Assembly (NCBI GenBank): GCA_963920705.1
Contig: OY987229.1
Coordinates: 21,209,728-21,273,727, forward strand
Direction of reading: 5' to 3'
DNA from: Odiellus spinosus
Lineage: Eukaryota > Arthropoda > Arachnida > Opiliones > Phalangiidae
Length of the DNA stretch: 64,000 nucleotides
Part shown: positions 7,601 to 49,038 of the stretch, piece after piece
Layout of the letters: each line of letters begins with the position of its first letter
Position numbering within the stretch: position 1 is the first letter of the stretch
Notes under the pieces: generated by a model
Database searches by the model: none
Told to the model about the DNA's origin: nothing
Seen by the model: the letters and a program-made list of their open reading frames with translations, nothing else
Made by a program: the position numbers and the translations under genes

Positions 7601-10600
7601 TATTGGACGTATTAATTTAAACGGTAGATAATATCCCTCCCTTCACAAGGAGCTATATAGTTAGGTAATATTAAAAAAAAAAAATCTATGACGTCTCACT
7701 TCGTGAAGTTGCTTTTCCATCTGATCTAATTTTTCTTTCCTCTTTTTCAACTTCTTCTCCAAGTCCTCCAACGTTTTGTGTCGCTCTTCCATTTGTTTTT
7801 GCATCGCGATAAGTTCCGGAGGTGGTTCCTTGGCCCCTTGTTTCGCTTGTTGTTGTAATTTTCTAATTTCCGCCTATAAAAAATAAATGGTTGACTAAAA
7901 TATCCATCGTAACTCGTTGAACTAAAAGTTAACATACACAAGCGAGCGTTGTTTTGAAGAATTACAAATAAAAATCAAGATGTGCCACCAATGGTGCAAC
8001 ATTTAAACAGAAGCCGATGAAACCCTCCTTTGAAGTCTATTACTCCAATGTTCCATATAGCGCTCCTCTCTGTATGGGTAAAATTCCCAATTTTACGAGA
8101 TCGGAGGGGTCCTACTTCATCCCCCCTGTCTACGGAAAATTGGAAATTCTCTCTCTCCACAAACGACGACGTTTTTGGACGAACTCCAAGGCTGCTAGAG
8201 ATATTCGCTCGACGAACTCCCGCTCCGAAAACATCTACCGTTAGGAGGCGTACGAATCGCACCTTTTGAGAATAACCCATACAGAGAGGGGTAGACAAGA
8301 CCAGGGAGTAATAGACTTCAAAGGAGGGTTTCATCGGCTTCTGATGTAACGAAATTGAAAGAGAGCTCGGATATTAGAACAGCGAATAAACAGTAATAGA
8401 AAGATTTTAGATGTGTAGTTTGAAATTAAGCGGGAAAAAGTGAAAGCTTTAGACGCAAGTAAAGCTCGGTTTGTTGGCAATTAGGCTAGATATAATATTA
8501 TCACTGAGGTTAAAATGAGTCAAAGATAACATTTTCTATATTCAGTGAGACAATGGTAATATTATAATAACGAGATCTGGATAAATATGAGTAGCTTTTT
8601 TTGGAGTGTTTTTTTAAGGAATGTAAAGTCTTAAGCCTCGGCCCAAGGATTCTTCCTAAATTTGCACAAACAAGTTGTTTGGTTTAAGATTTTTAAATAC
8701 TGTTCTTCGAAACACACATTGAGTAAGTTTTTTATTAATTGACATACTTTCTCTATTATGTTACTTATGGTCGTAGTACTTTGTCTTTAAACGATTGTTG
8801 TTAATTATTTCGGAAGGGAACAACCATCATTACAAGTATTTTGTCAAATTTTAAATCTCATTTTTAATCCTATAATGGTTTGGGCCACAAACATCTGTTC
8901 TTAATAATCCAGCGCTCTTTCCATTAAAATTAATGGCAATAAAAATAAAAATTTGGTAATTAAAAACTTAACCCGAGTAAAACAATAATAGAACGAACGA
9001 AAAAAATTATAAAACAATAATAAACTTTATTGAAAAATTAAAAAAAACAAAGGTATATGAAATTAATACTTAAAACTCCAGATAAATTGGAATAAAAATA
9101 ATATTGGTGGGTACAGAAACGTAATCAGACCATTACGTAACCAAATAAGGGGGACTAACCTCACGCCTCTCCAATTCTTGGACCAATTTTTCGAGTTGTC
9201 CTTGGAATCTTTCCCTTTCGACGTTAAACGATTCGCCGTCTTCGCGGGCTTTTTTCAGTTGTTTCGTTAATTGTTGCGTCTCTTGGACCATCCTCTGGGT
9301 CTCGCTCACGTGTTTGTCCAATTCCTTCCTCAGATGTTCAACTTCCTTTAGTAGCCTTTCCTTCTCTTCGAATATCACTCGCTCGTTGGCCTGTTGACTC
9401 TGTCCTTGCATCTCGATCAACTGCTTATTTTGTTCTCGGTATCTTTGGACTTCGACCTTGGCGTCTTCGATCTGTTGCTGCCATAAAGCGCCGCTTTCTA
9501 ATGATTTTTCCAACCTAGCGATCAATTCCTTGTTTTCGCGGTCGGTTCTTTGGAACTGCTGATCCATTTTTTGCAGCTCCTCGTACAGTTTTTGAATTTC
9601 CTGCTGCGACTTATCAAGCTCGTGCTTATATTTTTGGTGAGTCTCTTGCGATTTGCCGGCCACTGTTTTCGTTTGTTGGATTTCGCTCTCCAAGACCTGC
9701 AACTTTTGCTTGAGTTTATCTCTCTCTTCGGAAACCTTTCGCAACTCGACTTGAACTCTTTCCAACTGTTCCTTCATTTGCTGGTGTTCGTCTCGTAATT
9801 TGTCCCTCTCGACGGCAAGTTTTTCTTTCTCGGCGGTGGATGATTGCTGGTTCGATTGCACTTGGTTCATATAGTCCTCGGCGTCCTCGAGATCTTGCTT
9901 AAGCCGTTCGATTTCCATTTGCAGACGGCTATTCTCGCCTAAGGTCTTTTGCAAGTCGACTTCAGCGCGGTTTAGGAGTTGGCGGAGTCGATCGGCTTCT
10001 TCATTCTTCTCCTGGGAAGTTTGCCGCGAACTCTGTAGCCCGTCGATTTGCATTTTGGCTTGCGAGAGAGCTATTTGCAAAGACTGAACTTCCTGTAAAA
10101 GAACGTCTCTCTCTTCTTGAACCTTTTTCGTCTCCTTCTGACTCCTCTCCAATTTGTCCTTTATTTTCTCCATGTCGATCATCACCCTTTCGATGTCGTG
10201 CTTCTGCTTCTCGCCGCCAGTTTGAACTTTGTCCAAGCGATTGTGCGCCACTTCCAACTCTCGGTTAAGTCTCTCGATCTCGACTTGTTGTTTCTGTCGT
10301 ATTTCCGACAAATGCGTGATGTCCACCTTACACGTCTCGTACTTGTCTTTGACTTTCTCGATTTCGATGTACAATCGTTCTATTTCGCTCTCGTGTTTGT
10401 CCCTTTCTTGTTGCGTTACGCCTCGTTCGTTCAGCGCCTTGTCCAGCTCGGTTTGCAGCATTTGTACTTGGTGTAGCGCCAATTCCTTCTCCTTGGTAGC
10501 TTTTTCAATTTCCAGCAGGACCTTCTCGTATTTGTCCTTAATCTTCTCCATATCGATTCGTAGTCTGTCGAGTTCGCTCTGCGACCTTTCCTGGACAGAA

Positions 10601-13600
10601 TGATATTTGGACATTTGAGTGGCGTATCGGTCAACCTCGGCTTGGAGGTTTTCCTTGTCGGATTGCAACCGATCCTTTTCGTTTTGCGTCTTCCTGAGCT
10701 CTACCTGCGAACGATCGAGTTTTTCGTAGAGTTTTTCCAGTTCGACTTGCATCCTCGCCAATTCCTCTTGGGATTTCTCGTGGTGCGTCTGGGTTTTGCC
10801 GACGTGGGTTTGTATTCTGTCGATTTCTAGGGACATTCTATCGACCTCCCCTTGCAGTTTATCCCTTTCGGATTGCACTCGCCTCAACTCGACCTGCGAT
10901 TTCTCGTATCGGTCTCTCATGACTTCGAATTCCATCTGGCATCGGTCCATCTCGGTTTTGGTTTTTTCTTCGGATTCCTTCAGCTTCGTCAATTGGGAAT
11001 TAGTCCTAGCGTATATTTCCTGGAGGCCCTCGAATTCGTCTTGCGATCTCTTGCAGTCTTCCTTGGCTTTCGCCACGAATATCTGAGCCTTTTCCAGTTC
11101 CAGAGTTAAGCGATCAATCTCTCCTTGGGTTTGATCGAGCTTAGACTGATTCTTGAAATGCTCCGCTTGCGTTCGGTCCAATTTTTCCAGAACCTTTTCG
11201 TACTCGACCCGCGCGATTTCCTTCTCTTCCTGCGTCTTTGTCAATTGGTGCAACATCTTGTCCTGCTTCTCCCTCAGCACTCGCAGTTCGGCTTGCGTCG
11301 TGTCGTAATCGACGTGATATTTCTCCAACTGGTTTTGCGTCTTCTCCAGTCGATCTCGAATCACTTCAAACTCGGCTTGAACATTTTCTTTATCCTTATG
11401 GGTTTTGTTCAGCTGAGCCGTTAGTAAATCGATACGTTCCTGCAACTTCTCGACTTCGTTGTGATTCAAATCTTTTTCCTTCTGCAGCCTTTGCATTTGA
11501 GTCTGTAATCTTTCGTGTTTCTCCCTCATTTTATCGGCTTCGAGTTGAGCCGACTCTTTGTCTTTCTGCAGCCTTAGAGTCTGCGTCGTAACTTGATTGA
11601 GTTGCGCTTGCAAACCTTCGACTTCGCACTGGGCTCTTTCCCTTTCCGATTGCAATCGGCGGATTTCGGCGTTGGCCTTATCGAGTTTCTCTTGCACCCG
11701 GTCGCAGTCCAACTGCGCCTTGTCCAACGAAGCCTGTATCTTCTCGTGTTGCAATTGCGTTTTACCCAAGGTTCCTTGCACTCTTTCGAGTTCGCCTCGT
11801 AGTTTCTCGGCTTCCGCCATGGCTATGTCTCTTTCGGATTGACAGCGAGCTATGGAAGCTTGCACGCGATCGTATTCCTCTTGTAAGCTGTCTCTTTCAG
11901 CTTGAGAGTTTTCCAGTTTGGCTTTCAGCCGATAAATTTCGCCTTGCGACCTTTCGACCTTCTCTTGCAGTTGTTCGACCTCTCCTCGCGAGCGATCCTG
12001 TTCCGCTTGGTTCATTCTGAGTTCGGCTTGCGCTCGCCGAAGCTCCGACTGAACCTTCTCCATTTTTTCTTGCAACCTTTCGACCTCTTCCGATTGGAAC
12101 ATTTGGGTCTTTCCGAATGTATTCTGAGACCTTTCCAGTTCCAACCGTAAGCGATCCATCTGTTCGCGCATTCTTTCCATCTCTAAGGAAAGTCTGGAGT
12201 TTTCGCTCTTGGTTCTTTCATGTTCTATCACGCTTTTACCGTGTTCGCTGGCCAGTTTCTCTTGCTCGGCTCGCGCCTGGCCCAATTCCGACTGAGAATT
12301 TTCTAACTTTACCTCGACGCGGTCTTTTTCCGCGGCCGCCTTTTCCAGTCTGACCTAGATCAAGATCACAAAACAATATTATTTACGAAAAGTACAGTTC
12401 GCGAATAAATTTTTAAAAACCCTCTTTCTATCGCTGTGAAGGTATATTCAAAGGGAAAATAAAGCCCAATATAAAAATTTATCAAATCTGTTTGTATAGA
12501 TTTATAAATCGCGCGATAATTTATTAATTCATATTTTCTAATCTTCTTTAAAGAAAACGGTTCTATATTATTGAGGGAAATTTTGTGCAGGCAATGGCTT
12601 CAGCCAAAATCAATAGGTTTGGAAGAAATTTATTTTTCTGCGTTTCATACTTTAAAGAGAATGGAACCTGATAAAAAAATTGATTTTTTTAAATAGATTC
12701 CTTATCATTTAAATAGGCCTAATCCACCAGTAAAATAAATTTAAAACGGAAAATAGGCTTAGCTGGATTATTGGAGACCCTGCATTTCTTCGAATTGAAG
12801 AGTCAGCGATCAATCAAAATGTTATTGGAAGTCTCATTGAGATCTTGCCTTAACAACGGGCCTATTCTCATTGGTCAATGACCCTTCAACGCGAAGAAAT
12901 CCAGGATATCCATCAATCAAGCTAGGCCTATTTTAAAAATACATATTAGGTTTCATTCTCACTTTAAACTAACAAAACACGTGCATGGCTGCAGTGAATA
13001 GAAATATTTCTCTCAATCTGTATTTCATAACAATAACGGTTAAGCCTTTTCTTAAAACTCGGAAGAAATTAAGCGCGTATTTACCACTAGATGACGCTTA
13101 TTATGGTCAGTTTTTGTTGTTACTATCACCCTATTGAGTTAAGTATCCATTGTTAATAGTCTTATACGTTTAAGAAGCGACAAAATGCGTTAAGCCTAAA
13201 TGCTCTCTAATAATAAAATCTATATATACAGCATCCCAGAAAAAGTATCGGTGAGTGACCTAGTTTTTCGTTTCTCAATATAAATAAAATATTCACGATA
13301 AAAGCGCCGCAAATAAGTGCGTTTAGATTTATCCATTATCCGTAAGAAGGAAAAAAAAAGCTTATGACATCGCGATCGAATACCCGTAGTAAAACAAACA
13401 ATCGCGAAGCTTCGTGTATCCTCCAGAGAAATATGAAATAATGGAAGAAAAAAAAAAAAGGAGCGAATGCGGTTTGGTTTCGATCGAATGTCGTTTTAGG
13501 GTGTGTGGGGCTTACTTGTAACTTTTCCATCTCGCTTTCCATTCCGTGCATCTTCATTTTGTATTCGGCGATCTCTCGTTCGTGCAATTCTCGTTCTTCG

Positions 13601-16600
13601 TTTCGCTCTTGTTCGGCCCGGTCTCTCTGCTCCCTCAGCTGGCTAATTTGCTTTTCCTTATCCGAGATGGCTTCCTCCAGGCTGGACAGAGCCCCTTCCG
13701 ACGACGAATGGTGGGCTTGAATGGCCGTCAGACGCGCGCGAGCCATATCAACTTGGTTGTCTTTCTCTTTCAATAAATCTTCAAGATTTTCAATCTAAAA
13801 ACCAAAACAAACGAAATATAAAATTTATTTATACGGATTCGGTTCCTGAGAGAGAGGGAGAGAATTTTAAATCTTTATTCGTAAAAATAGTGTACCTGCA
13901 TTTGAAATATTTATACATATACTCAAGAATATATCATTTTCTGTAACTCTGGCTTCTTGTTTATTTTTAAAGGGATAATAAAGATGATTTTTTATCGAGT
14001 TTTTGAGTTAAATATAGGCCTACATTATCTCTAGGTATGACCAGAGGTATATAATAACCCCCTTCGGGGGGAAGTATGAAAGCCCCTATACTACCAATGC
14101 TAAAAATCACGAACAACAAGAGCCCGCTGCTGACTATCTAGGCCACTAGCTCGCGCTGGACTTCTCAATGTCGCTACTCTAGTAAATGGTCTTTGTATAA
14201 ACAAGACGGCTCGATTTGTGTTTAGAACTTCCTGTCTCAGGAGTCAGGCTGTCTGTTAAAATGGAGTCGAAGGTTGACTTCAGCTCGCGAGTTCCGGAAG
14301 TGTGCGTAGGGAAAATTTAGTGAGGTTCAAAATGGTGTAACTATTTTTTGGGAGTAAGGCGGGGTGTCGATCCGCCGCGATTTATGCCGGGCACTTGTTG
14401 TTCGTCGATTTGGCCTACCTTTCATACTTCCCCCCGAAGGGGGTTATTATATACCTCTGGTATGACTGTCCGTGGGTCTTCCATTACATACCTTTCTTTG
14501 TAAGACGTTGATTTTTCTGTCTTTGATGTCCATATGATCTCTCAGTTCCTGAAGCTCTTGCGTCAGTCGATTCCTATCTTGGGACGACGTCATAGACTGG
14601 TGGGTTCGCTTTTCAATCAACTTGTTCTTTTCCTCCAGCCTCTGACGTAGCTCCTCAACCTACAATTAGAAAAACCCAACAAGCTATTAATTTTTTTTAA
14701 AAGCATTCAATCCAACACTTAGGTAGGGCCCCCCCTAAGACGACGGATAGGTCGTTCGCGAATTACTTTAGTCAACAACAAGGCCCCAGCGCAATAATCA
14801 AAAGGCCCAAAAAATCTGAAAGTTGACGTCACCCCTAAGGAACCCCAGAATTTTAAAATGAGCGTCACAGGGGCCCCAAAAAGTTCATAGTCTTATTTTG
14901 AGGACCCCCAAAATTGTGCGGCGCTGGCCTGCATTGTTCCCCCCCCTCTCCCCTATCTGTGCCTGCATAATTATAGTCAATATCTGATGCTTTCGTTGAA
15001 TGAAAAAGCTCTTTATAGCCCAGAAAGAGTAAATCGATTGAATCGAACGAATAACCGATATGGGATCGAAAACTTTTTTTGGTAGGTAAAGCTACTTTCA
15101 CACTACAGCGTGTCCAAATCGATTTTAATCGATAAAAATCAAACGGATATTTTAAAATCGGTCGAAATCGATTTAAGCGCATTCATAAACCGATTTATTA
15201 TGGTTTCATCTGTTCGCTGTTGTAACCGAATCGGTTTGAAATTGGTTCCCGAAGCAGTTTCGAGAAATCAAGACAAAACGTTTTCCCATTCTCGCGATTG
15301 CATTTTTGAAATGGTTTAATGTCGCTTTAGATTCTATCGAGGGCGAAATAGTATAAAAAATATTTAGAATAAATTTTTCAAAATGACTTCAGAAGGATCG
15401 TTAACAAAACGGATTGAAAAGTCAAGACACGACTGCCTAATGAATCTAACCTTGCTAAGAAAATAAGATTTAAAAAAAAAAAAGTACGAAAAAAATGAAT
15501 TCTTTTAAAAAAAGTCTCTCTAAATCGGATACGAAGGAATGAAGGGCGATTAATGAAAGTTCTAAATGAACTGACAACCCGAGAAAAAAAAAAAGGATCG
15601 ATCGAGAGCGATGCTATTCTTCGCTCGAAAGGGCCAGTTAAAGTTGACACGAAAAATCCCCGGCTCATGGACTGCATGATGGCCCTAATGAGATAAGACC
15701 CGAATCAGTATCAGGCGCTAAGACCCTAAGACTGACCGCTGATTAGTTAGGCGCGCAAGTTGCTAAACGAAAAAGACTATTCGTAAAATTATACGTCAGA
15801 CGCCAACGTCTAGAGCTAAATGGTTCGTTTCTCCAACGTAATGAACGCCGAGACTCGACGGTTAGGAATAAAAACGTGGTTTAAATCTACGTTGATAAGT
15901 TTTCGAACGCGAACGTCTCGAACGATATCATTCGCGATATCACCACCCAAAATCAAGCAAATTGATGATGACTGGTTTGGTTTTAATTTAATAATTGAAA
16001 TTTTTACTAAAACATGTACGGAAATAAATTAAAATTTAATTTAAAAGACCTTTAAGTACAGTTATGATAAAACAAAAGTATATATTATAAGGCTGACCCC
16101 ACATTGAAAAGAAAAAAATCTTATTTGACACGACTGCACCATGTTATTTACTATGTAATTGACATATCAATAGGGCTGTCAATTGTATGATGCCAGAAAT
16201 AATTTACTATTTGAATTATTAAAATAAAAATCAATTTATTTTCTTATTTTTTGTAAGTGAAGTCAGAAGCCGATGAAACCCTCCTTTGAAGTCTATTACT
16301 CCCTGGTCTTGTCTACCCCTCTCCGTATGGGTTAGTTTCAAAAAGCGCGATTCGTACGCCTCCTAACGGTAGATATTTTCGGAGCGGGAGTTCGTCGAGA
16401 GAATATCTCTAGCAGCCTTGGGGTTCGTCAAAAAAACGTCGTCGTTTGTGGAGAGAGAGAATTTCCAATCTTCCGTAGACAGGGGGTATGAAGTAGGACC
16501 CCTCCGATCTCGTAAAATTGGGAATTTTATCCATACAGAGAGGAGCGCTATATCGAACATTAGATTAGTAGACTTCAAAGGAGGGTTTCATCTACTTCTG

Positions 16601-19600
16601 TTGAAGTGCATATAAACTTTGCTCTTCAATATGACGTTAACTTCAACATAGTCGCAATTATGCCAAACAATTGGACATAATTTTGTAATATCAATTTCTA
16701 AACAAATTATAGAAATACCACGCGTACAAAAAATCTATGAGCGTTAGTTCATATCAAATGTTGGCAAATATGGAGTCAGTACCGTCTTGTATCGCGAATA
16801 ACTGGGTATTTCACTCGGTTTACAAGTATCTAAATTTGTTCGTCGTTTTACCGAGTGGTAGAAACACCACCGTTAAAAGAAAGATATTGAAAATTGCTCT
16901 TAATATTTTAATTAATCTTTTCTTGTTAAACTCGTTGAAAACAAGCGGGCAAAGCCTCTACACGCATCGATATTCCGTCAATTTATTAAACTCGATTATG
17001 TATTTTGGGCGATACGTCGTCATGATATGGGTCTTTAATTATTCGATCAAGAAGGAAGGTTTAATCGACTTCTGCTCGCAAATTTTGATCGAGACTGAAC
17101 GAATTATTCCTAACGTTAAAAGAATCAAAATGACGACGCTAAGTTACCTTCAGATATTCATCGCCTGCATTTTGGTGGCGTATATATTTATTACATTTTA
17201 CATAATGATGACCGAAACCTACTTTTGGATGAACTTTCTTTATAACTATTCAATTGTTATAAAAAAATCTCAAGTTTTATATTTTCTAGTTGTTATAGAC
17301 ATTTGCTCGGAAACTATGGTGTATTTTTGGCTTTTTTCATTGCAAGCTACGATGGCATTTACCGTTCTAAGCGTACGAAGTGACATTTGTTATTTCGGAG
17401 ATACTTTAATCGGGGCAAATCGGTGCGACATCGAAACAATCGCTAAGAAACATACGCTAATTTTAGACATAATCCGACTAACTGATTCCAAATTTCGTTT
17501 CGTCGTTTTTTTGTGGATTATAGAATGGGTCGGTACCTTCTGCTTGAGATTATCGTACGTTTTTGGAATATCTTCGAAACAAATTAACGTAAGCCAGATA
17601 GTGTTGGATATGCTATTTTTTCTATCTGGAAGCGCTGTTTTAATCTTTACATTAACCCTGATGACGGACTGTACGAAGTATTTGGTATCGTGTTATCATA
17701 AGCGGGTATCACGTCAGAATGACCCGATTGAAACATATTTGTGTACTAAATTGATGGTAGCTCCGTTGAATTTCACCTATCTCGGTTGTATTACTTTAGA
17801 CAGAAGTTTCATTCTATCCATTTTCTTAGGAGCCGTGTCTTATTTATTGTTTACTATGACCCTTATTCCCCAGTCCGATTCTGCTCAAGAAATTGTTAAA
17901 CTGACTGCATGTACGAACATATCCGAACTATGTTTTCGGTGCAATTACTCTAAAATAGAACCATAATGAAAGTCGCGTAATTGTGTTTGCTAATTTAATG
18001 TTATTATGTGACCTGTTAAAATAAGTTGGTTTAATCACAGAAAAAAAAGCTGTTTACTACTTAAGAGGTAGGGGTAAATTTTATATTGTTTTAACTCGTA
18101 ACACCAGAGGTATATAATAACCCACTTCGGGGGGAAGTATGAAAGCCCCTATACTACCAATGCTAAAAATCACGAACAACAAGAGCCCGCTGCTGACTAT
18201 CTAGGCCACTAGCTCGCGCTGGACTTCTCAATGTCGCTACTCTAGTAAATGGTCTTTGTATAAACAAGACGGCTCGATTTGTGTTTAGAACTTCCTGTCT
18301 CAGGAGTCAGGCTGTCTATTAAAATGGAGTCGAAGGTTGACTTCAGCTCGCGAGTTCCGGAAGTGCGCGTAGGGAAAATTTAGTGAGGTTCAAAAAGGTG
18401 TAACTATTTTTTAGGAGTAAAGCGGTGTGTCGATCCGCCGCGATTTACGCCGGGCACTCGTTGTTCGTCGATTTTGCCTACCTTTCATACTTCCCCCCGA
18501 AGGGGTCATTATATACCTCTGATATTTCTTAAAGTTTTTTAATCAAAAAAGGTAAAGTAGATTCCAAAACTATTCTTTTAGCCATTGATTTCCCACTGAT
18601 ACTGTAACTGTTGTATACAAAAATTATGGCTAAAACCACGTAGAAAATAGAAATGTCCTATTTGAAACGTCTGTACAATGTTATCTTTATATATATTCAT
18701 AACCATAGGGTTGTCAATGATACTACACGCGAGTGTTCGTGCCCAAATTATTTCGTTATCCTTGAAATTTAATTAATATCAATTATGTATGCAAAAATAA
18801 AACATTTCGTTCACTCCTTTTTCTGGTTTGTCTTATTTTCTCTGTCAGACAAATTGCGAAACAATTCAACCAAACATTACGCGATCAATTTCAACAACAG
18901 GGTTCTAAAAGATAATAGAAAAGTATCGTGCATAAAACAATTCTAGATTTTATTGTCCGGGTATGCAGTCCGAAGATCAAACCTCGAATATGGAGCCTAC
19001 GGTACCGTCTTGTGTCGCGAATAACTTAGTATTTCACTCGGTTTACAAGTATCTAAACTTGTTCGTCCCTTTACCGTGTGGTAAAAAAACCACGCTTAAA
19101 AGAAAGATAATTACAAATTTAATTAATATTTTTATTAATATGTATTTGTTAAACGCGTTGAAAATTTGCGTGGAAAGGATATCCGCGGAGATTTATTCCA
19201 TTCGGTTATTTAACTCGCTAATGTATTCAGCTCGATACGTCGTCATGATTTGCGTCTTTAATTATTCGATCAAGAAGAAAGGCTTGATCGATATCTGCTC
19301 GCAAACATTGATCGAGATTGAACGATCTATTCCTAACGTTAAAAGAATCAAAATGACGACGCTAAGTTACCATCAGATATCCATCGCCTGCATTTTGGTC
19401 GCGTATACTTTAATTTTATGTTACATAATGATGACCGAAACTTACTTATACGTGAACTTTCTTTTTAACTATTCAATTGACATAAAAAATTATCACGTTT
19501 TGAAATTTATGGCTCTTATATACGCTGGTGCGGAAACGCTGGTGTATCTTTGGTATTTTTCTTTGCAAGCTATGATGGCGTTTACCGTTCTAAGCGTACG

Positions 19601-22600
19601 AAGTGGTGTTTTGAATTTCGGAGATACTTTAATTGGGGCAAATCGGTGTGACATCCAATCAATCGCCAAGAAACATACGCTAATATTAGACATAATCGAA
19701 CAAATTGATTGCAAATTTCGTTTCGTAGTTTTTCTGTGGATTATAGAATGGGTCGGTACCTTCTGTTTGAGATTATCGATTTTTTACGGAATGTCTTTGC
19801 CACTAATCTACGCAAGCTTCACGTTGTCCGAAATTGGATTTTTTCTATCTGGAAGCGCTGTTTTAATCTTTACATTAACCCTGATGACGGATTGTACGGA
19901 GTATTTGGTAGCGTGTTGTCATAAGCGAGTGTCGCGCTTTCGATCTTTCGGTTACCTTGGCCCGATTGAAACATATTTGTGTACCAAATTGAAAGTGGCT
20001 CCGTTGAATTTCACCTATCTCGGTTGCATTACTTTAGACGGAAGTTTCATTCTATCCGTTTTCTTGGGAGCCGTGTCTTATTTATTGTTTACCATAACCC
20101 TTATTCCTCAGTCAGATTCTGTACAAGAAATGACTAAATTGACTACTTGTACGAACATATCCGAACTATGTTTTCGATGCAATTACTCTAAAATAGAACC
20201 ATAAATGAGAGTCAAGACGAATTAGTGATGACAATAAGCTATTGACAGTCGCGTAATGAAGTTGATATTACATTAGAATTCGCGCGTGATATAATTATTG
20301 GATTAATTTTTATCCTCTAATTAAATAAGCTTTCAACTAGCTGGGAATAGCAAAAGATGTCCCAATTAACCCCCGTCCCATATACTTTGCAGCAAAAATT
20401 CTTCCGCTATTCGTTTTCTCAGATCTCTAAAAAAAAACAATGGCGTTTCATTTTTCTCCTGATTTAATTTTATTAATCCAAGATATTAGATTGGCCATCT
20501 AATCTATATTTTCATTTTAAATATTATTATTTGAATTGGCAAGCCTTCTGTCAAACTTCTACTTTTAAAATTATGTAATTACATCTTAAAAATAATAATT
20601 CAGGATAAAAATTCAAATATTCCTACAGAAACTGTTGTGTACAATACAAAATTGCCTTTAGAAAATAGAAAATTATTTCTTATTTGACAATGCTATTTAC
20701 CAGAAGCCGATGAAACCCTCCTTTGAAGTCTACTACTCCAATGTTCCATATAGCGCTCCTCTCTGTATGGGTAAAATTCACAATTTTACGAGTTAGAAGG
20801 GGTCCTACTTCATCCCCCCCCCGTCTACGGAAAATTGGAAATTCTCTCTCTCCACAAACGACGACGTTTTTTGGACGAACTCCGAGGCTGCTAGAGATAT
20901 TCGCTCGACGAACTCCCGCTCCGAAAACATCTACCGTTAGGAGGCGTACGAATCGCGCCTTTTGAGAATAACCCATACAGAAAGGGGTAGACAAGACCAG
21001 GGAGTAATAGACTTCAAAGGAGGGTTTCATCGGCTTCTGTATTTACTTAAAAATGATTATAGAAATAGGGCTGTCTCAGTGGCATGACACGTAATCATTT
21101 GTGCCCAATTATATTTATTTTATTCTTGAATTATTAACTAAAATCAATATCGATCTGATCAATTCGAGAAAAAACAAATAGAGAAAACTACCAGCCATAA
21201 AATAAATTATTTTCACTCAGTCCGTTGGTATCAAAGGTTCTAAAATATGGATCCTGTACCGTCTTGTATCGCGAATAACTGGGTATTTCACTCGGTTTAC
21301 AGGTATCTTAATTTATTCGTCGTTTTACCGAGTGGTAGAAAAACCACCGTTAAAAGAAAGATATTTAAAATTGTTCTTAATATTTTAATTAACCTTTTCT
21401 TGTTAAACTCGTTGAAAATAAGCGCCCAAAGAATCTACACGCAGAGATATAACGTCAGTTTATTTAACTCGCTTATGTATGTCGCGCGACTCGTCGTCAC
21501 AATGTGCGTCTTTAATTATTCGATCAAGAAGAAAGGTTTAATCGACTTCTGCTCGCAAACATTGATCGAGACTGAACGAATCATTCCCAACGTTAAAAGA
21601 ATCAAAATGACGACGCTAAGTTACATTGAAATATTCATCGCCTGCATTTTGGTGGCGTATACATTAATTGAATGGTACATAATTATGACCGACACTTACT
21701 TCTGGGTGAACTTTCTTTATAACTATTCAATTGTCATAAAAAATTCTTACGTTTTATATTTTATCGGTCTTGTACACACTTGCGCGGAAACAATGGTGCA
21801 TTTTTGGCTTTTTTCTTTGCAAGCTACGATGGCGTTTACCGTTCTAAGCGTACGAAGTGACATTTGTTATTTGGGAGATACTTTAATCGGGGCAAATCGG
21901 TGTGACATCGAAACAATCGCTAAAAAACATACGCTAATTTTAGACATAATCCGACTAACTGATTCCAAATTTCGTTTCGTCGTTTTTTTGTGGATTATAG
22001 AATGGGTCGGTACTTTATGCTTGAGATTATCGTACGTTTTTGGAATGTCTTCGACACAAATTAACGTAAGTCAGATGGTGTTGGACATGGTATTTTTTCT
22101 ATCTGGAAGCGCGGTTTTAATGTTTACATTAACCCTGATGACGGACTGTACGGAGTATTTGGTATCGTGTTATCATAAGCGGGTATCACGTCAGAATGAC
22201 CCGATTGAAACATATTTGTGTACTAAATTGATGGTAGCTCCGTTGAATTTCACCTATCTCGGTTGTATAACTTTAGACAGAAGTTTCATTCTATCCATAT
22301 TCTTGGGAGCCGTGTCTTATTTATTGTTTACCATAACCCTTATTCCCCAGTCAGATTATGTACAAGAAATGATTAAACTGACTTCTTGTACGAACATATC
22401 CGAACTATGTTTTCGGTACAATTACTCTAAAATAGAGACATAAATAATTTGGTTTAATCTCAGAGATTATTATGAAATAATAATGTTAATATACTACTAC
22501 AACGTTCTAATTGTTCACTTGCAAATTAGCTAATTAATTGTTACGGGAAAAGACGTTGGTTACCATCTCAATAAGGTTTAACACCGAGTATCAATACGCT

Positions 22601-25600
22601 AACTAAGGAGCAAGGCATCTGCAAGGGGTAATAATTTTACGGCCCCCAAATTTTCTTACGATCATCTAAAAGCACACTGTATAACAACTGCCACAGTTCC
22701 ACACTACGACAACTCCTCTTAGAAGTTGTAAATATTTTACCACACTCATAAGAAATCCAAATTTCACATTAAATTATGTACATAAGTATTTAGAACTACT
22801 GGTTTATGTTCTTAATAACCAAATTTTTGGTATTTCCGGTTTGGCTAGCCGCCGATAAAAGATATAAACGGAACCACTCATCAGTGGAGTTTTATATGGT
22901 GCTCTAATCTCATTCATGAAAACATATTTTCAAAATTTTTATCATATTTGTTATATTCATTAGCCTTGACCTTTATGACCCTACAATCTCATTCCTTAAT
23001 TTTTATAATTAAAATTAAACAAGAAAAATTATGTTAGATGCTACAAAAGATAAAGGAGAGAATTTTGGTCATAAATTTATATTTTCATTGATTTATGACA
23101 TATGTACATTTGTATCCAAAAAAAACTTTCCTTTTATATGATTGAACCCATTTATTAATAAGAAATTATTTTATTTACTTAATGGCAGAAGTAGATGAAA
23201 CCCTCCTTTGAAGTCTACTACTCTAATGTTCGATATAGCGCTCCTCTCTGTATGGGTAAAATTCCAAATTTTACGAGATCGGAGGGGTCCTACTTCATAC
23301 CCCCTGTCTACGGAAAATTGGAAATTCTCTCTCTCCACAAACGACGACGTTTTTTTTGACGAACTCCGAGGCTGCTAGAGATATTCGCTCGACGAACTCC
23401 CGCTCCGAAAATATCTACCGTTAGGAGGCGTACGAATCGCGCTTTTTGAAACTAACCCATACAGAGAGGGGTAGACAAGACCAGGGAGTAATAGACTTCA
23501 AAGGAGGGTTTCATCTACTTCTGTTAATGGTCATATGGACAAAGCAATAGGACTGCCAAATGGTAAGAGCTAGAATATTTCGTGCCCAGAATGATATATC
23601 TTTGTTATCTTTGAATTAATAAAACAATTCAAATCGACTCCTTTTTCTTGTTTTTTCATATATTTTTTGCGTAAAGTTTGAAAAACTTGTGTGTACATTG
23701 ACGACAAGATATTCGCCACCACATAACTTTAACCAATCAATTTCAAAATGCATTAAAAATAAATACCACGTGTTAAATAATGGTAGCTTATATTTTATCA
23801 GAACTCAAGAAATCGTTAGATTTTTCCATTTTACGTATTAATTATTTATAGCGAAAATATTCCATTGTTTGAAAAAGATTGCGACCTCTCAGCCCCACTA
23901 GACTTCTCTGGTTAATTAAAATTTCCACTACGGGTGACGTTCGTTCGTGTTAAAAGGTAATAATATAATATGGCCAACTCCGTAACTTGATAAATAATAA
24001 ATATAAATTGATCGAATAAATGGTTTTGAGCGTGTTTTGAAATGGGCTCTTTTATTTTTTTTTTTTTTTTTTCCTGGAATGTTCCTTTATAAATATTACC
24101 TGCAAAATAACCAAGCTTTTTCGACATTCTTTTCCAGAAGTCAAGTGATATCAAACGTTAGCAATTATGGAGCCAATACCGTCTTGTATCGCGAATAACG
24201 TGGTATTTCACTCGGTTTACAAGTACCTAAATTTGTTTGTCCTTTTAACCACAGTTAAACGAAAAATATTCACCATTTTTCTAGATATTTATATTAATTT
24301 GTGGTTGTTAAACTCATTGAAAGTTAGCGTGTTAAGTATGTACGCGAAGATATATTCTGTCGAGTTATTTAACTTGCTTATGTTTTTATCGCGACGCCTC
24401 GTCACGATTTGCGTCTTTAATTATTCGATCAAGAAGAGAGGCTTGATCGATATCTGCTCGCAAACTTTGATCGAGACTGAACGAATCATTCCTAACGTTA
24501 AAAGAATCAAAATGACGACGCTAAGCTACTTTCAAATATTCATCGCCTGCATTTTGGTCGCGTATACATTAATGGCGTGGTACATAATGATGACCGAAAC
24601 TTACATATGGGTGAACTTTCTTTTTAACTATTCAATTGACATAAAAAATCCTCACGTTTTATATTTTCTCGCTATTTTACACGCTTGCGCGGAAATGCTG
24701 GTGCATTTTTGGCTTTTTTCTTTGCAAGCTACGATGGCGTTTACCGTTTTAAGCGTACGAAATTATATTTTGAATTTCGGAGATACTTTAATAGGGGCAG
24801 AACGGTGTGACCTTCAAACAATCGCCAAGAAACATACGCTAATATTAGACATAATCGGACTAATTGATTCCAAATTTCGTTTCGTCGTTTTTGTGTGGAT
24901 TATCGAATGGGTCGGTACCTTCTGCTTAGAATTATCTTTCGTTTTTGGAATGTTTTTGAAACCAATCTACAGAAGCTTCGCGGTGTTCGACATTGTATTT
25001 TTTCTATCAGGAAGCGCGGTTTTAATGTTTACATTAACCCTGATGACGGACTGTACGGAGTATTTGGTAGCGTGTTGTCATAAGCGAGTATCGCGTTACC
25101 ATGGCCCGAATGAAATATATTTGTGTACCAAGATGAGAATCGCTCCGTTGAATTTTACCTATCTCGGTTGTATTACTTTGGACAGAAGTTTCATTCTATC
25201 CGTTTTTTTGGGAGCCGTGTCGTATTTTTTATTTACATTAACACTTATTCCCCAAAAAGATTCTGCTACTACTTTCACCAACATAACCGCAGTGTAATTG
25301 CTCTAAAATCGGGCTATAATATTTTTGCGCCAGGGGGTTAGCAAAGACTCTAGTGTGTTCTCTATAATATTAACAATTTATAACTATTTGCAGAAGCCGA
25401 TGAAACCCTCCTTTGAAGTCTATTACTCCCGGGTCTTGTCTACCCCTCTCTGTATGGGTTAGTTTCAAAAAGCGCGATTCGTACGCCTCCTAACGGTAGA
25501 TATTTTCGGAGCGGGAGTTCGTCGAGCGAATATCGCTAGCAGCCTTGGAGTTCGTCAAAAAACGTCGTCGTTTATGGAGAGAGAGAATTTCCAATTTTCC

Positions 25601-28600
25601 GTAGACAGGGGGGTATGAAGTAGGACCCCTCCGATCTCGTAAAATTGGGAATTTTACCCATACAGAGAGGCGCGCTATATGGAACATTAGAGAAGTAGAC
25701 TTCAAAGGAGGGTTTCATCGGCTTCTGTTCTCTATAATATTAATATTTTATAACTATCTAGCACACTTCTTAGAAGTTGTAGACACTTACCACCTCTCGT
25801 AAGGAATCCAAACCGAAACCCAAAATTATTTTCGCGGGTTCTTTCATATGTGTAATATTTATTAGCCAATATGGTTGGCAATTATCATTTCTTCTTATTA
25901 TTAAAATTGTAATAGCTTACAGAAGATAATTTATGTCAAAAAAATTAAATTTCCGTGAATCTATTTGTGTACTAAAAGCCTTTCTGTATGACTAAATTAA
26001 ACTAGAAATTACTTTATTTACTTATAAATGGGCACAGAAAAAGGGATATCAACAGCAAGACGTGGAAAAATTCGTGCCCAGAATGAAATAAAAACTTTGT
26101 TATCTTTGAATTAATAAAACTCTTCAAGTTCCCTCCTTTTTCGTGTTTTTCTTTATTATTTGTGTGTGCGTGAAGTCCATAAACATTAAATGTTTATAGA
26201 CCCCAACATAGTCACATCTATGCCAAACAAGTCCTACTAATTTTATCCGATCAATTTTTAAATAAATTAAAGGAAAACACCGAGTTAAATAATTCTAAAT
26301 TGACAATCATATTTTAGAATAAATTACGTAAATTATTTCAAGAGTCTGAGAAAAATTAGCGCGACCTTTCAGCCCCTGTGACGTTTCATGTATCAAACGT
26401 GTTGACCAATGATAAATTTACCTACATCAAGAATCCATTCAGGTTCCATAAGAATATGGGAGGGTCGCGATTCAATATCCATCCTCCCAAACTTTGTAGC
26501 AAAAGTTCGTCCGCTTCGAATCGATTTTTCAAGTAAATCGCTCCTGATATCTATTATTAACCCGCCCCACTAACGACCTTAACATAATATTTTGGGTAAG
26601 AAAAATGGAGCCGACCGAAAAAAGATCAAAGCGTACAAATGTTGCGAAAATTGCGGACGAACTTTTGTTACAAAGTTTGGGAGGATGGTACCAGAGGCTA
26701 TAAGCTATGCTCCCATATTCTTATGGAACCTGAATTGATTCTTGCCTACATACATGTTCGTTCGTGTTAAAAAGCAATACATTAGGACCGCCTCACACGT
26801 CCATAACTTGTTAAATAATTAATGTAAACAGTTTTTTGAAAAGGGCAATTTCTTTTAGAAAGCAATTATTTCTCCTGGAATTTTCCTTCATAAATATTAG
26901 CTGCAAAATACTCATGCCTTTTCCACAAATTTTCCTAGAACTCCTTTGCTATCAAACGTTGGCAATTATGGATCGTGTACCGTCTTGTATCGCGAATAAC
27001 TGGGTATTTCACTGTGTTTTCAAGTATCTAAATTTATTCGTCGCTTTACCGCGTGATAAAAAAACCACAGTTAAACGAAAGATAATTACAATTTTTCTTA
27101 ATCTTTTCATTAATCTCTTTTTGTTAAATCTGATAAAAGTTAACGCGGAAAATTTGTATGCCGAGATTTATTCTATCCAGTTATTTAACGCGCTTATGTA
27201 TTTAGCACGACGCGTCGTCATGATCTGCGTCTTTAATTATTCGATCAAGAAGAAAGGTTTAATCGACATTTGCTTCGAAACCTTGATCGAGACTGAACAA
27301 ATTATTCCTAGCGTTAAAAGAATCAAAATGGCGACGCTAAGTTACCTTCAAATATTTATCGCCTGCATATTGGTCGTTTATATGATATTTGCGTGGTACT
27401 TAATCATATCCGAAAGATACCTTAAAGTCAATTTCTTTTTTAATTATTCAATTATCATAATTAACCCTCAAATTCTGTGTTTTCTCGCGATTATCTTCTG
27501 TTGCGCGGATAACTTAGCGCATATTTTCGTGTTTTCTTTGCAAGCTACGATGGCATTTACCGTTTTAAGTCTACGAAATTATATTTATGTTTTCGGAGAA
27601 ACATTGCAAGCCGCAAAACATTCGGATATCCAAAAAATCGCCAAGAAACACACGCAAATATTAAACATAATCGAAAAAATTGATTCCAAATTTCGTTTCG
27701 TCGTTTTTATGTGGATAGTGGAATGGGTCGGTACCTTCTGCTTAAGAATTTCGTTCGTGTTAGGATCAGTATCTTCGACAGTAATAGTGGTTAGTTCATT
27801 CGCTTTGGATATCGCGTTTTTTCTTTCGGAAAGCGCTGTTTTATTCTTTACATTAACCCTGATGACCGATTGTACGGATAATTTGGTGTCGTCTTGTCAT
27901 AAGAGAGTATCCCGCTTTCGAAATTTTAGTTACTGTGGTCCAAATGAAACATATTTGTGTACCAAGATGAAGGTAGCACCGTTGAATTTTACCTTTCTTG
28001 GATGTATTCCTTTGGACCGAAGTTTAATTCTGTCAGTTTTCTCGGGAGCCGTGTCTTATTTATTGTTTACCTTAACACTTATTCCCCGATCAAATTCTGT
28101 AATTGTTAACTCGACTAATTGTTCCGATGTATCTCAATTATGTTTGCAATGTAATTACTCTAAAATCGGACCATAGTCCATCAATAAAAATATTAATTAT
28201 AACTAAAAATTCATTTAAAACTTACCCTGAAAATAGGCTTAGCTGAGGATTCCTGAAGAACTCAACATTTAAGGACTATCAACCAATGACATTGATCAAG
28301 AATCCATTCAGGTTCCATAAGAATATGGGAGCATAGCTTATAGCCTCTGGTACCATCCTCCCAAACTTTGTAACAAAAGTTCGTCCGCAATTTTCGCAAC
28401 ATTTGTACGCTTAGATCTTTTTTCGGTCGGCTCCATTTTTGTTACCCAAAATATTATGTCAAGCTCGTTAGTGGCGCGGGTTAATAATAGATGTCAGGAG
28501 CGATTTACTTGAAAAATCGCTTCGAAGCGGACGAACTTTTGCTACAAAGTTTGGGAGGATGGTTATTGAATCGCGGCCCTCCCATATTCTTATGGAACCT

Positions 28601-31600
28601 GAATGAATTCTTGCATTGATTGATAGTCCTTATATGGGGAGCTAAGCCTATTTTGATGGTAAGTAAATAATTTTACTGATATTAGGCCTATTTAAACGAT
28701 AAATCAGTTATGTTTCATTCTTCCTTTAACTGTAATAAACAGATAGGTAACGCTTTTTAATCTTGATATTAACCCTTGACGAAACATTGGGTAAGCGCTT
28801 TGTGTATTTTGGTTACCGTGGCCCGATTTCTGCTACCCTTTTAAATATCTTAATTATCAATTCCCCCTAGACTTGGCATTTTATATGAAAGTAGGAACAA
28901 ACGTTTCAAATTAAATAAATAAAAAAAAAAAAACAATATTTAAATATGAGTGCAGAACCCATAAAGAAAAGAGGTTTATGCTATTTACTTAAATGGTCAC
29001 ACGCACATATAGCAATAGATACGTTAATGACCACACGTGCCCAGAGTGAAAAATATCGGTTTCTTTCAACTAATAAAACAATTCTTCGAAAGGCCACTCC
29101 TTTTTGGTGTTTTTATGTTTTACGCGTACATTTTGTAAACTTTACATCTTCATAGACGTCAATATAATCGCGACAATACCCAAGTTAGCTCCATTCTTTT
29201 CAACAAGTCTCTTGATTGTTGGCAAAAATGGATTCAGTACCGTCTTGTATCGCGAATAATTGGCTATTTCATTTGGTTTACAAGTACCTAAATGTGTTCG
29301 TCCCGTTACCGAGTACCAGAAGAATCACAGTTAAACGAAAGATAATTACCATGTTTCTTACTGTTTTAATTAATCTCTTTTTGTTAAACTGGTTAAAAAT
29401 TTGCGTGCAAACGATTTACGCTGAAGGATATTCCATTAATTTGTTTAACAATCTAGTGTTTCTCGGGCGACGCGTCGTCACGATTTGCGTCTTCAATTAC
29501 TCGATTAAGAAGAGAGGCCTAATCGACATTTGTTTGGAAACATTGATCAAGATCAAAGGAATTATTCCTTACGTTACAAGTAACAAAATGGCGACGTTAA
29601 GTTACCTTCAATTATTTATCGCGTGTATTTTGACGGTATACACATCAATAACCTGGTACTTAATGATGTCCGAAACTTTCGCGTGGATGAATTTCTTTTT
29701 TAACTATTCATTTGTCATAAAAAATGAACGCATTTTATATTTTCTCGCGATTATCTATTGTTGCGCGGACACTTTGTTGAATTTTTTCGTGTTCTCTTTG
29801 AAAACCACGATGGCGTTTACAATTCTAATCGTACGAAAATATATCTGGTATTTCGGAGAGCATTTAGTCACGGCAAAGCCTTCGGACATCCAAACAATCG
29901 CGAAACAACACACGATTATCTTAGACATAATCGGACAAATTAATTTCAAATTTCGTTTCGTCGTATTTGTGTGGATTATGGAATGGGTTGGTACCTTCTG
30001 TTTAAAATTATCTTTCGTTTTTGTAAAGTCTTCTAGACTAATTTTATTAACTTTTGACGTGTTGGATATAGCTATTGTTCTTTCGGGAAGCGCGGTTTTA
30101 ATCTTTACATTAACTTTAATGACAGAATGTACGGAGCATTTGGTATCATGTTGTCATAAGCGAGTATCGCGATTTCAATCTTTCGGTTACCATGGCCCGA
30201 TTGAAATTTGGTTGTCTACCAAGATGAGGGTCGCTCCGTTGAATTTCACCTTTCTAGGTTGCATTCCTTTAGACAGAAGTTTCATTCTATCCGTTTTCTT
30301 GGGAGCCGTGTCTTATTTACTGTTCGCAATAACCCTTATTCCCCAATCAGAGTCTGTTCAAGAAATTGTTAACGCAACTAATTGTATCAACATATCAGAA
30401 CTATGTTCGCGGGGTTACGGCTGTAATGTGTCCGATTTTAATTAATATATAGTCAGAAGCCGATGAAACCCTCCTTTGAAGTCTATTACTCCCGGGTCTT
30501 GTCTACCCCTCTCTGTATGGGTTATTCTCAAAAGGCGCGATTCGTACGCCTCCTAACGGTAGATGTTTTCGGAGCGGGAGCTCGTCGAGCGAATATCTCT
30601 AGCAGCCTTGGTGTTCGTCCAAAAAACGTCGTCGTTTGTGGAGAGAGAGAGAATTTCCAATTTTCCGTAGACAGGGGGCATGAAGTAGGACCCCTCCGAT
30701 CTCGTAAAATCGTGAATTTTACCCTTACAGAGAGGCGCGCTATATGGAACATTAGAGTAGTAGACTTCAAAGGAGGGTTTCATCGGCTTCTGTTAATATA
30801 TAGTTTATTTGCAAACGCAAACGTTAATTTGTAGGGATTTAACGGAAGGGTGAAGAGGAAAAAAAGTGTTTTTTATAGATTTTTAATTAATTAGAAGACT
30901 AATCCGCGAAGTGAAATAAACCCCAATGATTTTAAAAATCAAAATAGATCCTCCCTCTGACCAATCATGTAACGCCCTGCCTTCCAGCGAACAAAATACT
31001 CTTGGCAATAAAGGTTTACCAGCAGAAAAAGGCTAAACACACAAACCGGAAATTAGACCCTTAAAATATATATCACGTGACGTCAAGATTAAAATTACGT
31101 ATACATTATAAACTTAAATATGTAAGAATCATGTAATTTAATTAAAATCTGAAATTTTGAAACCGTTTAAATCGATTTCAAGGCCTAGTATGAATGCGGC
31201 TTAAGTATACTTCGATGAAGATTCAACGAACTATGTAACACAAAAAAAAAGTGTGAAAGACTGAAACCCGGATGGAAGATGGGAATTCGCTTCCCAATCC
31301 CTCCGTTCATTGGTTGGTTATCTCTACGGAGTTCACTAATGACTTTCTGACAGATGAGACTAATGGCGGATATGGCCTGGGTTCTCTACATTCGCTTCCC
31401 ATTCAGTTTTTTTTTTTTACTGATTTTTTTCCTTCCCCACTCTCTATAGGTCGTTTCTTCATTATTTTCACAAAATCTAACCGATTTAATCTCCCGCGCT
31501 TCGACCAATAAATTGTCTCCCCTTTATTATTAATTTGAAAGTGAGGGTAAAAGAAATAATAATAAAAAAAAAAAACTAGTTACCGTCAAGATAAGGTGAT

Positions 31601-34600
31601 AATGGATTAAAGTTTCATTTAAAAAAAAAACGACTTAACGAAATAACTTTCATCAAAAGTATATAAAACTAAACTTGGAAAAAAAAATGTTCCACGAATT
31701 TAGACAATGCACGATTTAAGGATTCCAGTCTACAGGCAAAAATAACAACTTCCCATTGGTTAACCGTGTTGGGGGATTTGTACCTAGTATGGACAATGGT
31801 GTATTGTACCAAGAGTTTAATATCAACATCATATAGAAAATGGCGGGAAAATTAACGTCATGGATAGAGACTACAATAACATCCGGCTACTCGCTGGGTT
31901 TTTATTTTGACCTAATTTTCTAGGCCCGTATGGCTTTGTCCAAGGAGATTATATCTCCAACAAAGGTTTTTTTTACCACTCATAACCAAGTTTTTCTAAA
32001 AAAATAGGCCTAAATTGCAACGAGGTTCCAAGAGAGCACGACATAAACCGACGTTCATAATCTTCAAGTCTACTTAAGGGGGCAGACACTCGCGAACTCA
32101 GGTGTAGAAAATTCTGGAACTCTTTGCACTATCAAAGCTGAACTCAGAGTTCATAAGAGTTCGAGCCCAATGCACTATCAAAGCTGAACTCAGGTGTACA
32201 GCGAATTCAAGAGTGTCGGACCCCTTGATCTGAACCTTTACTTCATTCAAGGTTGAATTATACCCCAAATTGAAATGAATAGCAAAACCTGTACTCACAT
32301 CATACCCCAAATTGAAATCGCAAATGAATAACAAAACGTGTACTCACATCGGCTTGCAGCATATTATAGTGCTCCTCTTTGGCGCAGAGAGATTCTTTGA
32401 GGACGGCTATGTGTCTTTGATAGTCCTGATGTTGTTCTTCCAACGTCCTCATTTTGGCACCCATGGCCAATATTTCCTGATCGCGCTTGTTTAACTCTAT
32501 TTTCAACTCCTCCATCTATAATTCACGGGGAAAAAAGCTTTTAAGTCGAGATAAATAACGCGAAAGCCTGTTTTAAAATTCCTCGCTAACTAAATTATTC
32601 CGAGAATCAGCTAGAAAAAGCAATATCACTTAAGCAATTACTTCGCATTTTATCTACTATACACAATCACGCAGCTACTAAAAACAAAATTAAAATTGAA
32701 TCCTCAGCAATTTATTATTTTAAATCGTTGAAGTGCTTTTCTTTATCTATTTTTCTTGATTATTTCTTATTTATGGAATGTAAAAGTTCAAAGTTCAAGT
32801 TATTTAAAGCCTGGTTTTCACAGAGGGTGGATCTTAAATTCTATGACACCGCCAGTGGAAAATTAACCGGGCCTAACCTGGATGTACACACACTTCACAA
32901 AAGAGCATGCCCAGATTAATTATTCAAGTGGCGAAAATATTTCTATATGTTCACCCGAAAACATGCAAAAATTATCGAATTTCAAGTTTACGCGAATTCT
33001 AGAGCGACTTCAGTGTGCATCCGACTTCAATCTTATTAAATTAACAATCTAATTTAAAATTTACTCACAAACAAGGCTTAAAAAATCTACGGAGAGATGG
33101 AAGAGATTGAAATCTCACTTTAGCCAAGGCCTAATCAGATAAAAGCGCGCGAATCTTAAGCCTAATTTGAAACATTTCACATTCGAAAAAAGCGCGCGCT
33201 TTTCGCGTTTCGAGGAGCGTTTGCCGATTCGTTGGAAAATTTCCTCACGTGATATATCAATCTCCCAATGGATCTTCGTTAGGCCTAATATTTTTTATTC
33301 CACAAGTAATAACCCAAAATTTATTTTACCTTATTGAGATCTTTGTCTTTGACATCCATGAGACTCTCTAGGTGCCTGGCTCTCGTTTCCAGTTCCATTA
33401 ACCTGGATCGTAGCCTTTCATTTTCTAACCTCTCCTCTTCGGATCGTATACTCCCTGCTCAGAATCCAAGAAAAAGAAAACGCTATGAACATCGTTTACA
33501 TCCGCGAAACGAGCGCGAATTAGAAAAGTCGAGTGCGCCTTTTGAACTTTGAAACTCAATTATGACTAAAGGGATACTAAACTCTCTAAACTAGTTATTT
33601 TTAATCGATAGGGACAGTTAAAACATTACCAAAACTCGAAGAAGTCTTCGTAGTAATTCGGGGTCAATTACTGAACCAATGAGAGCCCGTCTTTGAAATG
33701 GCGCGTGAACCGAAGGATGTTTTATTAGAAATAGCTCGCGCTTTAGATTTGACTTGATTCACGTGCATCAGCAAATAATTTTTCCCGCCAATTTTTAGTG
33801 TTTAAAATTTATTCTCAACGGATTTAGGCTTAGCGAGTCTAGTTCGTGACTTTGATAATTCGAAATTTTTCATGAGTTTTAACGCGTACAGTTCAAAATC
33901 GTTCTAGTATCCTTCTAAGCCTAATTTTTTAGGGAATAATTAAAACCTAAATTTGTAAAACCTGTTTCAACATATCAAACGTATCTAAGCCTAATGCGAT
34001 GATGTGATTTTAAAAACACAAATAAATTAACAACCTAGGGTTTAGGTTACGAAAAAAATTGATTTCAAACTTCTACGGGGTGGGGGGGGGGGGGGGTGAG
34101 GTATTCGTGTAGAAAATTATTTACACCCTATTTGGACAAGAGACTCAAAAAATTTACATAACTGAAAATATTAGTCTTTTTGCGTTTGGTTCAAGACTTA
34201 ACCCACTAGTGTATAATTAGTTAATAAAAATAAGCTAAAATTCACAAGGGAAGCTATAAGAGTCGCTAGGGAAGAGATATTCGCTAGAAACCATTTTTAA
34301 TTAGGCATTTTGTAAAAACTTTGAGAAGCTTATGGAGCAAAGATTACTTTCTTTTAATATAAATTATATACCGCTAAGTGTAGTGAACTTTCAGAAGTGG
34401 TTGAGGGGTGTTTATTATGATCGTCATTTTGTTTTAAGGACAAGCAAATGGTAGGTCTGAGTACTCAGGGAGTTCAAATGGTTTGACTTGTTTATTTAGT
34501 ACTTAAAAGTTTATACTCGCGAGAGAAATTTAAATAAAATTATGAACTTACCAATTCCTTTGTTTTGTAGCATCTCCATCAACTTCTTGATGCTCTCGTC

Positions 34601-38135: not shown

Positions 38136-38471
38136 CAGAAGTAGATGAAACCCTCCTTTGAAGTCTACTACTCCAATGTTCCATATAGCGCTCCTCTCTG
38201 TATGGGTAAAATTCCCAATTTTACGAGATCGGAGGGGTCCTACTTCATACCCCCTGTCTAGGGAAAATTGGAAATTCTCTCTCTCCACAAACGACGACGT
38301 TTTTTGACGAACTCCAAGGCTGCTAGAGATATTCGCTCGACGAACTCCCGCTCCGAAAATATCTATCGTTAGGAGGCGTACGAATCGCGCTTTTTGAAAC
38401 TAACCCATACAGAGAGGGGTAGACAAGACCCGGGAGTAATAGACTTCAAAGGAGGGTTTCATCGCCTTCTG
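38136..38471 (-). mobile_element. MITE family B, copy B7
   Basis: 336 bp, ends CAGAAGTAGATGAAACCC and GGGTTTCATCGCCTTCTG. Flanks ATATGGT and ATATAAG match poorly, so no duplication is claimed. Confidence 0.9.
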
Positions 38472-48895: not shown

Positions 48896-49038
48896 GTGCA
48901 ATTTTCTTTCATCTGGTCCATGTCAATTACATTTTCGATACCGTCATTATTATTCCGCTCTTCCTGTAGTCTATCTCTAATTAAAAGTTCTTCTTCCGTG
49001 TACACTGGTTCAACTTCAAACGGATATATTCGCGGCAT
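48892..49038 (-). pseudogene. Short transposon ORF (second gene of the Kolobok-like element)
   Basis: 48 codons, MPRIYPFEVEPVYTEEELLI ... ends DMDQMKENCT then stop. The F-E-x-E-P-x-Y-T-E-E-E-L pattern recalls N-termini of transposon- or P2X7-tail-like zinc proteins in animals; identity uncertain. Overlaps the THAP exon border by a few bases, consistent with two genes brought together by an internal deletion. Confidence 0.45.

Follow-up and report, generated by a model that had tools for sequence, protein, structure and literature searches.

Putative Gr-like chemoreceptor genes arrayed antisense within one intron of bruchpilot in a genome window of Odiellus spinosus

The locus described here raises the question of how six related and apparently intact genes come to lie inside a single intron of an unrelated gene, on its opposite strand, without disrupting it. 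It is part of a stretch of 64,000 nucleotides from Odiellus spinosus (GCA_963920705.1, contig OY987229.1, positions 21,209,728 to 21,273,727 of the forward strand), which is called the window below and in which all positions are counted from its first letter. The host gene is bruchpilot (brp), a synapse gene of the ELKS/CAST family carried on the minus strand, while the nested genes, termed R1 to R6, appear to encode Gr-like members of the insect odorant receptor/gustatory receptor (OR/GR) superfamily rather than canonical Grs, judging from profile and fold searches. The answer that we regard as likely is that an OR/GR founder in the brp intron underwent tandem duplication together with its own leader, leaving six intact copies and a relic, and that the array is spliced out with the intron.

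The state of the host gene can be read from its spliced frame. Eleven brp exons, from 35445 to 6591, were rebuilt from the window with GT-AG joins and matching phases, giving a single open frame about 1,600 codons long, which is free of stops until a BRP-type end near 6591 and finishes with ...GPASFFSSFF and a stop codon. The array is located in the intron at 14660–32347 (minus strand; 17,688 bp), of which the donor GT lies at 32347 and the acceptor AG ends at 14660, both in phase 0. A stretch of 330 amino acids spanning this intron matched the Pfam family Cast (PF10174) with an E-value of 1.3e-71 and a score of 242.4 bits, where the cut-off is 29.1. In its best part, 204 residues align with 204 positions of the profile, and the alignment passes over the junction (residues 181/182) without a net gap, indicating that the flanking exons (32348–32515 on the 5' side and 14492–14659 on the 3' side, both placed by the spliced frame and the Cast match) are adjacent in the protein. 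As far as the window shows, brp is intact. These results bear out a preliminary description of the locus, made from the sequence without database searches, in which brp on the minus strand was named as host and 14660–32347 as one single intron.

They also bear on the reading that the array comes from elsewhere and was joined into the brp intron by the assembly. Tandem paralogs and repeated miniature inverted-repeat transposable elements (MITEs), such as those found here, are where assemblies fail; however, the brp frame stays in phase on both sides of the array, the Cast profile is crossed with no net gap, and copies of the array's MITE family also occur elsewhere in the window, five of the ten being outside the host intron. 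We give such a misjoin very little credence.

On the plus strand of the host intron, six open frames of 376–405 amino acids follow one another head to tail, without introns in their coding part, as the preliminary description had stated. They are R1 (16770–17966, 398 amino acids), R2 (18990–20204, 404 amino acids), R3 (21247–22443, 398 amino acids), R4 (24167–25297, 376 amino acids), R5 (26968–28176, 402 amino acids), and R6 (29228–30445, 405 amino acids). All six share an invariant methionine and a common N-terminus in the alignment, and this methionine was taken as the start because the in-frame ATGs farther upstream in R1 (16737, probably not the start), R2 (18963), and R5 (26914) give unconserved extensions. 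The C-terminal tail of R4 is shorter than that of the other copies, with the last hydrophobic segment kept. Identity to the reference copy R3 is 63–85%; R1 and R3 form the closest pair though they are not neighbours, and similarity is uneven along the frames, a pattern that gene conversion might leave. No significant coding match beyond the six frames was obtained in the window with tblastn or a protein hidden Markov model (HMM), and no relatives of the receptors were found in the viral and prokaryote contigs scanned with the receptor alignment.

The substitutions among the copies suggest how these frames have been kept open. The ratio of nonsynonymous to synonymous substitution (dN/dS), obtained with a simple counting method, is 0.30–0.59 in all 15 pairs, and every bootstrap interval lies below 1 (upper bounds 0.39–0.84), while dS among the copies reaches 0.70 and is about 0.56 between R5 or R6 and R1–R4. 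In a substitution-only neutral simulation starting from R5, open frames were left in none of 2000 runs at 0.28 substitutions per site, which is half of the dS of about 0.56, and in 56 of 2000 runs at 0.069. Six open frames by chance are very unlikely, and dN/dS together with the simulation points to selection on the receptor proteins, though not strong selection. The alternative that the copies are silent passengers, drifting in a tolerant intron with frames left open from recent duplication, is unlikely in our view: it would suit the just moderately low dN/dS, the decay of one copy to a relic, the changed C-terminus of R4, the altered pore motif, and the presence of a MITE in the R1 leader and of others between the copies, but it has to explain six of six frames open at such dS values in the face of the simulated decay.

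The assignment of the proteins to the OR/GR superfamily is based on a weak match of one copy to the Pfam family 7tm_7 and on a fold search from a low-confidence model. In the Pfam scans, in which full-length frames were run at E up to 1 and fragments later at E up to 10, the C-terminal part of R5 gave the best 7tm_7 match (E 8.3e-4; 19.2 bits, below the curated 26.6), reaching profile position 362 of 370, while R5 from the shared methionine matched at E 4.9, yet co-linearly over profile positions 33 to 362. Moreover, when an AlphaFold model with R5 on top, the second of two and with a predicted local distance difference test score (pLDDT) of 47, was compared by Foldseek with a library of 350,542 chains, the best nine of 330 matches were all insect ORs or GRs (E 1.0e-3 to 4.0e-2), with template modelling (TM) scores of 0.38–0.41 for four GR chains and 0.28–0.34 for five OR/Orco chains. 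By its Foldseek rank, read at a pLDDT of 47 and TM-scores of 0.28–0.41, the model is consistent with an OR/GR fold with the S0–S7b order of helices, and its helix order fits the S0–S7b plan that is described for BmGr9 in the excerpt of PMC11100771 used here. A simple hydropathy scan gave 6, 6, 8, 8, 8, and 9 hydrophobic peaks for R1 to R6, respectively, R1 being scanned from 16791 instead of 16770.

Several results weigh against this identity or against the proposed explanation as a whole. The 7tm_7 family was matched by just five of the 26 receptor items given to Pfam, all five among the eight from R5, of which two further fragments and the full frame had no 7tm_7 match; none of the six full-length proteins matched any Pfam family at E 1, and fragments from the remaining copies had either no match at all or low-scoring ones to unrelated families, such as MARVEL (the best, at E 0.11) and DAD. 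A profile of the six copies retrieved no chain from the PDB sequences at E 10. For the earlier of the two AlphaFold models, in which R3 was on top and the pLDDT was 40, no fold match was significant; its list was led at E 0.38 by an insect odorant receptor. With the second model (pLDDT 47), no TM-score reaches 0.5 and no match an E-value below 0.001, and the match with the best E-value is to an OR. The exact Gr motif TYhhhhhQF is absent from all six copies, in which the position reads SY[LF]LF[TA][MIL]TL, with SY in place of TY and without QF. Besides, polyadenylation-signal-like hexamers number nine in six 600-nt stretches versus about seven expected by chance, and the view that the copies may be working genes is argued from open frames and dN/dS. 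As regards the motif, SY for TY occurs in some weevil Grs according to the excerpt of PMC8308034, so that the copies may still be Grs despite its absence in exact form. The seven-transmembrane chemoreceptor identity given in the preliminary description is thus retained at the level of the OR/GR superfamily, while the canonical Gr motif is missing from every copy.

How the array grew can be approached from what precedes each gene. Related 5' blocks are present on the plus strand before all six copies, at 16161–16252 (R1), 18783–18845 (R2), 21065–21153 (R3), 23537–23781 (R4), 26030–26293 (R5), and 28982–29183 (R6), which indicates that leader and gene were duplicated together. In R1 a MITE (16264–16602) separates block and start codon; the block of R4 is about 0.4 kb from its start codon, and that of R5 about 0.7 kb, with an inverted-repeat element (26426–26746) in between. 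The sequence at 26.0–26.3 kb, considered as the 5' end of an orphan receptor, was rejected as such, since an equivalent block precedes R4 and R6, and is read as the displaced block of R5. AG-like sites before the start and the displaced block suggest a spliced 5' untranslated region (UTR) in R4 and R5, which would fit the six ATGs that R4 (23640–24166) and the 13 that R5 (26140–26967) have from the 5' block to the shared start. No conserved donor for such an intron in R4 and R5 was seen by eye, and a 5'-UTR intron is not claimed.

A relic of a seventh copy lies on the plus strand at 28746–28828, where nhmmer and pairwise alignment delimit about 83 bp with internal deletions; the preliminary description had likewise counted one relic. 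An nhmmer profile of the six genes matched 28749–28828 at E 9e-4 in the whole window, compared with E 9.4 for the sole match up to E 10 in the reversed window, which served as control. The relic consists of two co-linear pieces, 28746–28781 and 28795–28828, with 79–82% identity to R1, R2, and R6, and 75–78% to R4 and R5 where a longer piece aligns, and it corresponds to the part coding the sixth helix, as placed by the low-confidence model, and what follows. At the protein level it gave no HMM domain and just a 15-residue tblastn match (E 0.23 and 0.43). Another candidate remnant, at 22885–23016, was set aside as too weak (tblastn E 0.55 for R1; domain E 8.7 for 22906–23013).

In total the array spans about 14.8 kb of the 17.7-kb intron (bounds 15990–30800, set by hand). 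Out of 17,688 bp, the six frames account for 7,167, five MITE copies for 1,700, and two inverted-repeat elements for 692. The MITE is about 345 bp long with inverted ends of about 38 bp, and its ten copies in the window, for example at 16264–16602 and about 38140–38470, include five inside the receptor intron, one of them in the R1 leader. The inverted-repeat elements (26426–26746 and 28266–28636) each have inverted halves, stand in mutually opposite orientation, and are 97% alike over 317 nt. The preliminary description had attributed the length of the intron, 17.7 kb, to duplication; growth by duplication is supported, but the receptors are not the sole cause of that length, because five MITE copies and two inverted-repeat elements add about 2.4 kb and because another brp intron, upstream of the exon at 35445, seems longer, with no receptor array found in it by tblastn. 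This upstream intron probably exceeds 28.5 kb: a crude codon-based scan from 35.46 to 64 kb, which had no positive control and could have overlooked one, revealed no N-terminal brp exon.

Our explanation supposes that a founding Gr-like chemoreceptor gene of the OR/GR superfamily came to sit antisense in the brp intron, and that tandem duplication of the unit, including its own 5' leader, produced at least seven copies, of which six would have stayed intact and one decayed to a short relic. It starts from what is directly visible in the window, namely the strands, phases, and frames, the homology among copies, the constraint, and the related 5' blocks. Each intact copy would probably be transcribed as a unit of its own, from a promoter that may well lie in the related 5' block, with a single coding exon for the receptor; chemosensory neurons would be the site of expression, and the receptors would work as ligand-gated channels. 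RNA polymerase copying brp would cross the array on the opposite strand, the whole array would be spliced out, and brp would tolerate it through ordinary splicing.

Polymerases on the two strands would meet when both are active on one allele. Since brp is expected to be active in all neurons, receptor-expressing ones included, separation by tissue cannot fully avoid such a meeting. The contrast drawn in the preliminary description, between brp in all neurons and receptors in sensory neurons, does not hold the two apart, as sensory neurons are themselves expected to express brp. Interference between the array and brp is plausible.

Supplementing the explanation by duplication, one may further suppose that the host regulates the array, in that brp transcription, running through it in every neuron, silences the receptor promoters on the other strand, whether by colliding polymerases or by antisense RNA, and that receptors are expressed just where this silencing is broken, perhaps with a single copy active at a time. 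All six copies are antisense and nested in a gene whose activity is expected in every neuron, as this proposal would have it. In Drosophila, nested pairs show expression divergence that was attributed to interference, while no such divergence was seen in mammals, according to the excerpt of PMC8467205. However, the same excerpt gives opposite-strand nesting as the common arrangement anyway, so orientation alone is uninformative; the opposite effect, a nested antisense gene inducing a form of its host, was reported in C. elegans (PMC12274878, as excerpted). The sequence of the window does not decide between interference and induction. Regulation by the host appears improbable to us, and its fuller version, in which neuron-wide brp transcription is a built-in brake on the antisense promoters and the host decides where, or which of, the six receptors are expressed, slightly more improbable still.

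The remaining brp exons, all on the minus strand and placed by reconstruction of the spliced frame, are 35293–35445 (the most 5' one found in the window), 34552–34648, 33330–33454, 13516–13794, a giant coiled-coil exon of 3,195 nt at 9160–12354, 7700–7873, 7335–7579, 7077–7212, and 6591–6650, which is the last coding exon of the long form. Apart from the host intron, the nine introns between the exons measure 120–1286 bp. The giant exon and the later exons, in one open frame, make up a long coiled-coil C-terminal half, which we take to be a feature of insect-type Bruchpilot; Pfam matches of the giant exon were mostly to coiled-coil families, just one of them (CENP-F_leu_zip) above its cut-off. 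Downstream of the BRP-type stop near 6591, at 4.7–5.7 kb on the minus strand, there are also exons for an ERC-type C-terminus (Cast positions 630–766, E 5.2e-19), where a stop is followed by an in-frame ATG (MSTNFLATDDD...); they belong either to an alternative brp 3' end or to a short transcript of their own.

Some further observations concern the long upstream intron and the repeats of the window. Weak receptor matches at 48442–48626 on the minus strand (tblastn E 0.020–0.69; HMM domain E 1.7 and 2) are either chance or a very old receptor remnant. Nearby, at 48692–49075 on the plus strand, a THAP-like open reading frame (ORF; E 1.6e-4; 22.8 bits against a curated 23.9) is perhaps a transposase remnant; it is one of ten ORFs compared with Pfam, nine of them in the upstream intron, and the others gave nothing or weak matches (E 0.018–0.18). 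Tandem repeats with periods of 22, 31, and 28 bp are present at 2969–3173, 34846–35178, and 53507–53989, respectively. A search against Rfam at gathering thresholds returned nothing in the window.

The locus is an intron-nested antisense paralog array, in that several paralogs sit within a single intron of a gene unrelated to them and on the strand opposite to it. The preliminary description took nested genes in insect introns to be common but knew of no tandem receptor array inside an active-zone scaffold gene. Precedents exist in insects. According to the excerpt of PMC1891103, a cluster of GMC oxidoreductase genes lies in a homologous intron of flotillin-2 (Flo-2) in four insect species; as here, tandem paralogs lie in one large intron of an unrelated gene and are almost all opposite to the host, but they encode enzymes instead of chemoreceptors, the host codes for a lipid-raft protein, and the nesting is shared by four species, whereas the brp array is known here from one genome window. 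Similarly, TipE-like genes are clustered in the last intron of CG18675 in insects (PMC3240667, as excerpted), several members of one family being nested in a single host intron; unlike R1–R6, they encode sodium-channel auxiliary subunits, and the cluster is old, holds VhaM9.7-c in drosophilids, and has a host that is not synaptic. Insect Grs such as BmGr9 and Gr43a (excerpts of PMC11100771 and PMC8308034) resemble the nested receptors in being their fold-search neighbours, in length, in the helix order of the low-confidence model, and in occurring in tandem arrays, but the exact motif TYhhhhhQF is missing from R1–R6. No description of chemoreceptors in brp was found in searches of open-licence PMC papers. 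Insect introns that hold several related genes are already known, and a chemoreceptor array in brp is a further case.

To the insect introns that host one gene family, this locus adds a chemoreceptor array, and its host is a gene for which activity in every neuron is expected. As receptor neurons should also transcribe brp, it would serve as a natural experiment on how a single cell accommodates two opposed transcription units at one locus. Finally, if the nesting proves to be conserved, the locus would also allow chemoreceptor birth and death to be dated at one fixed site.

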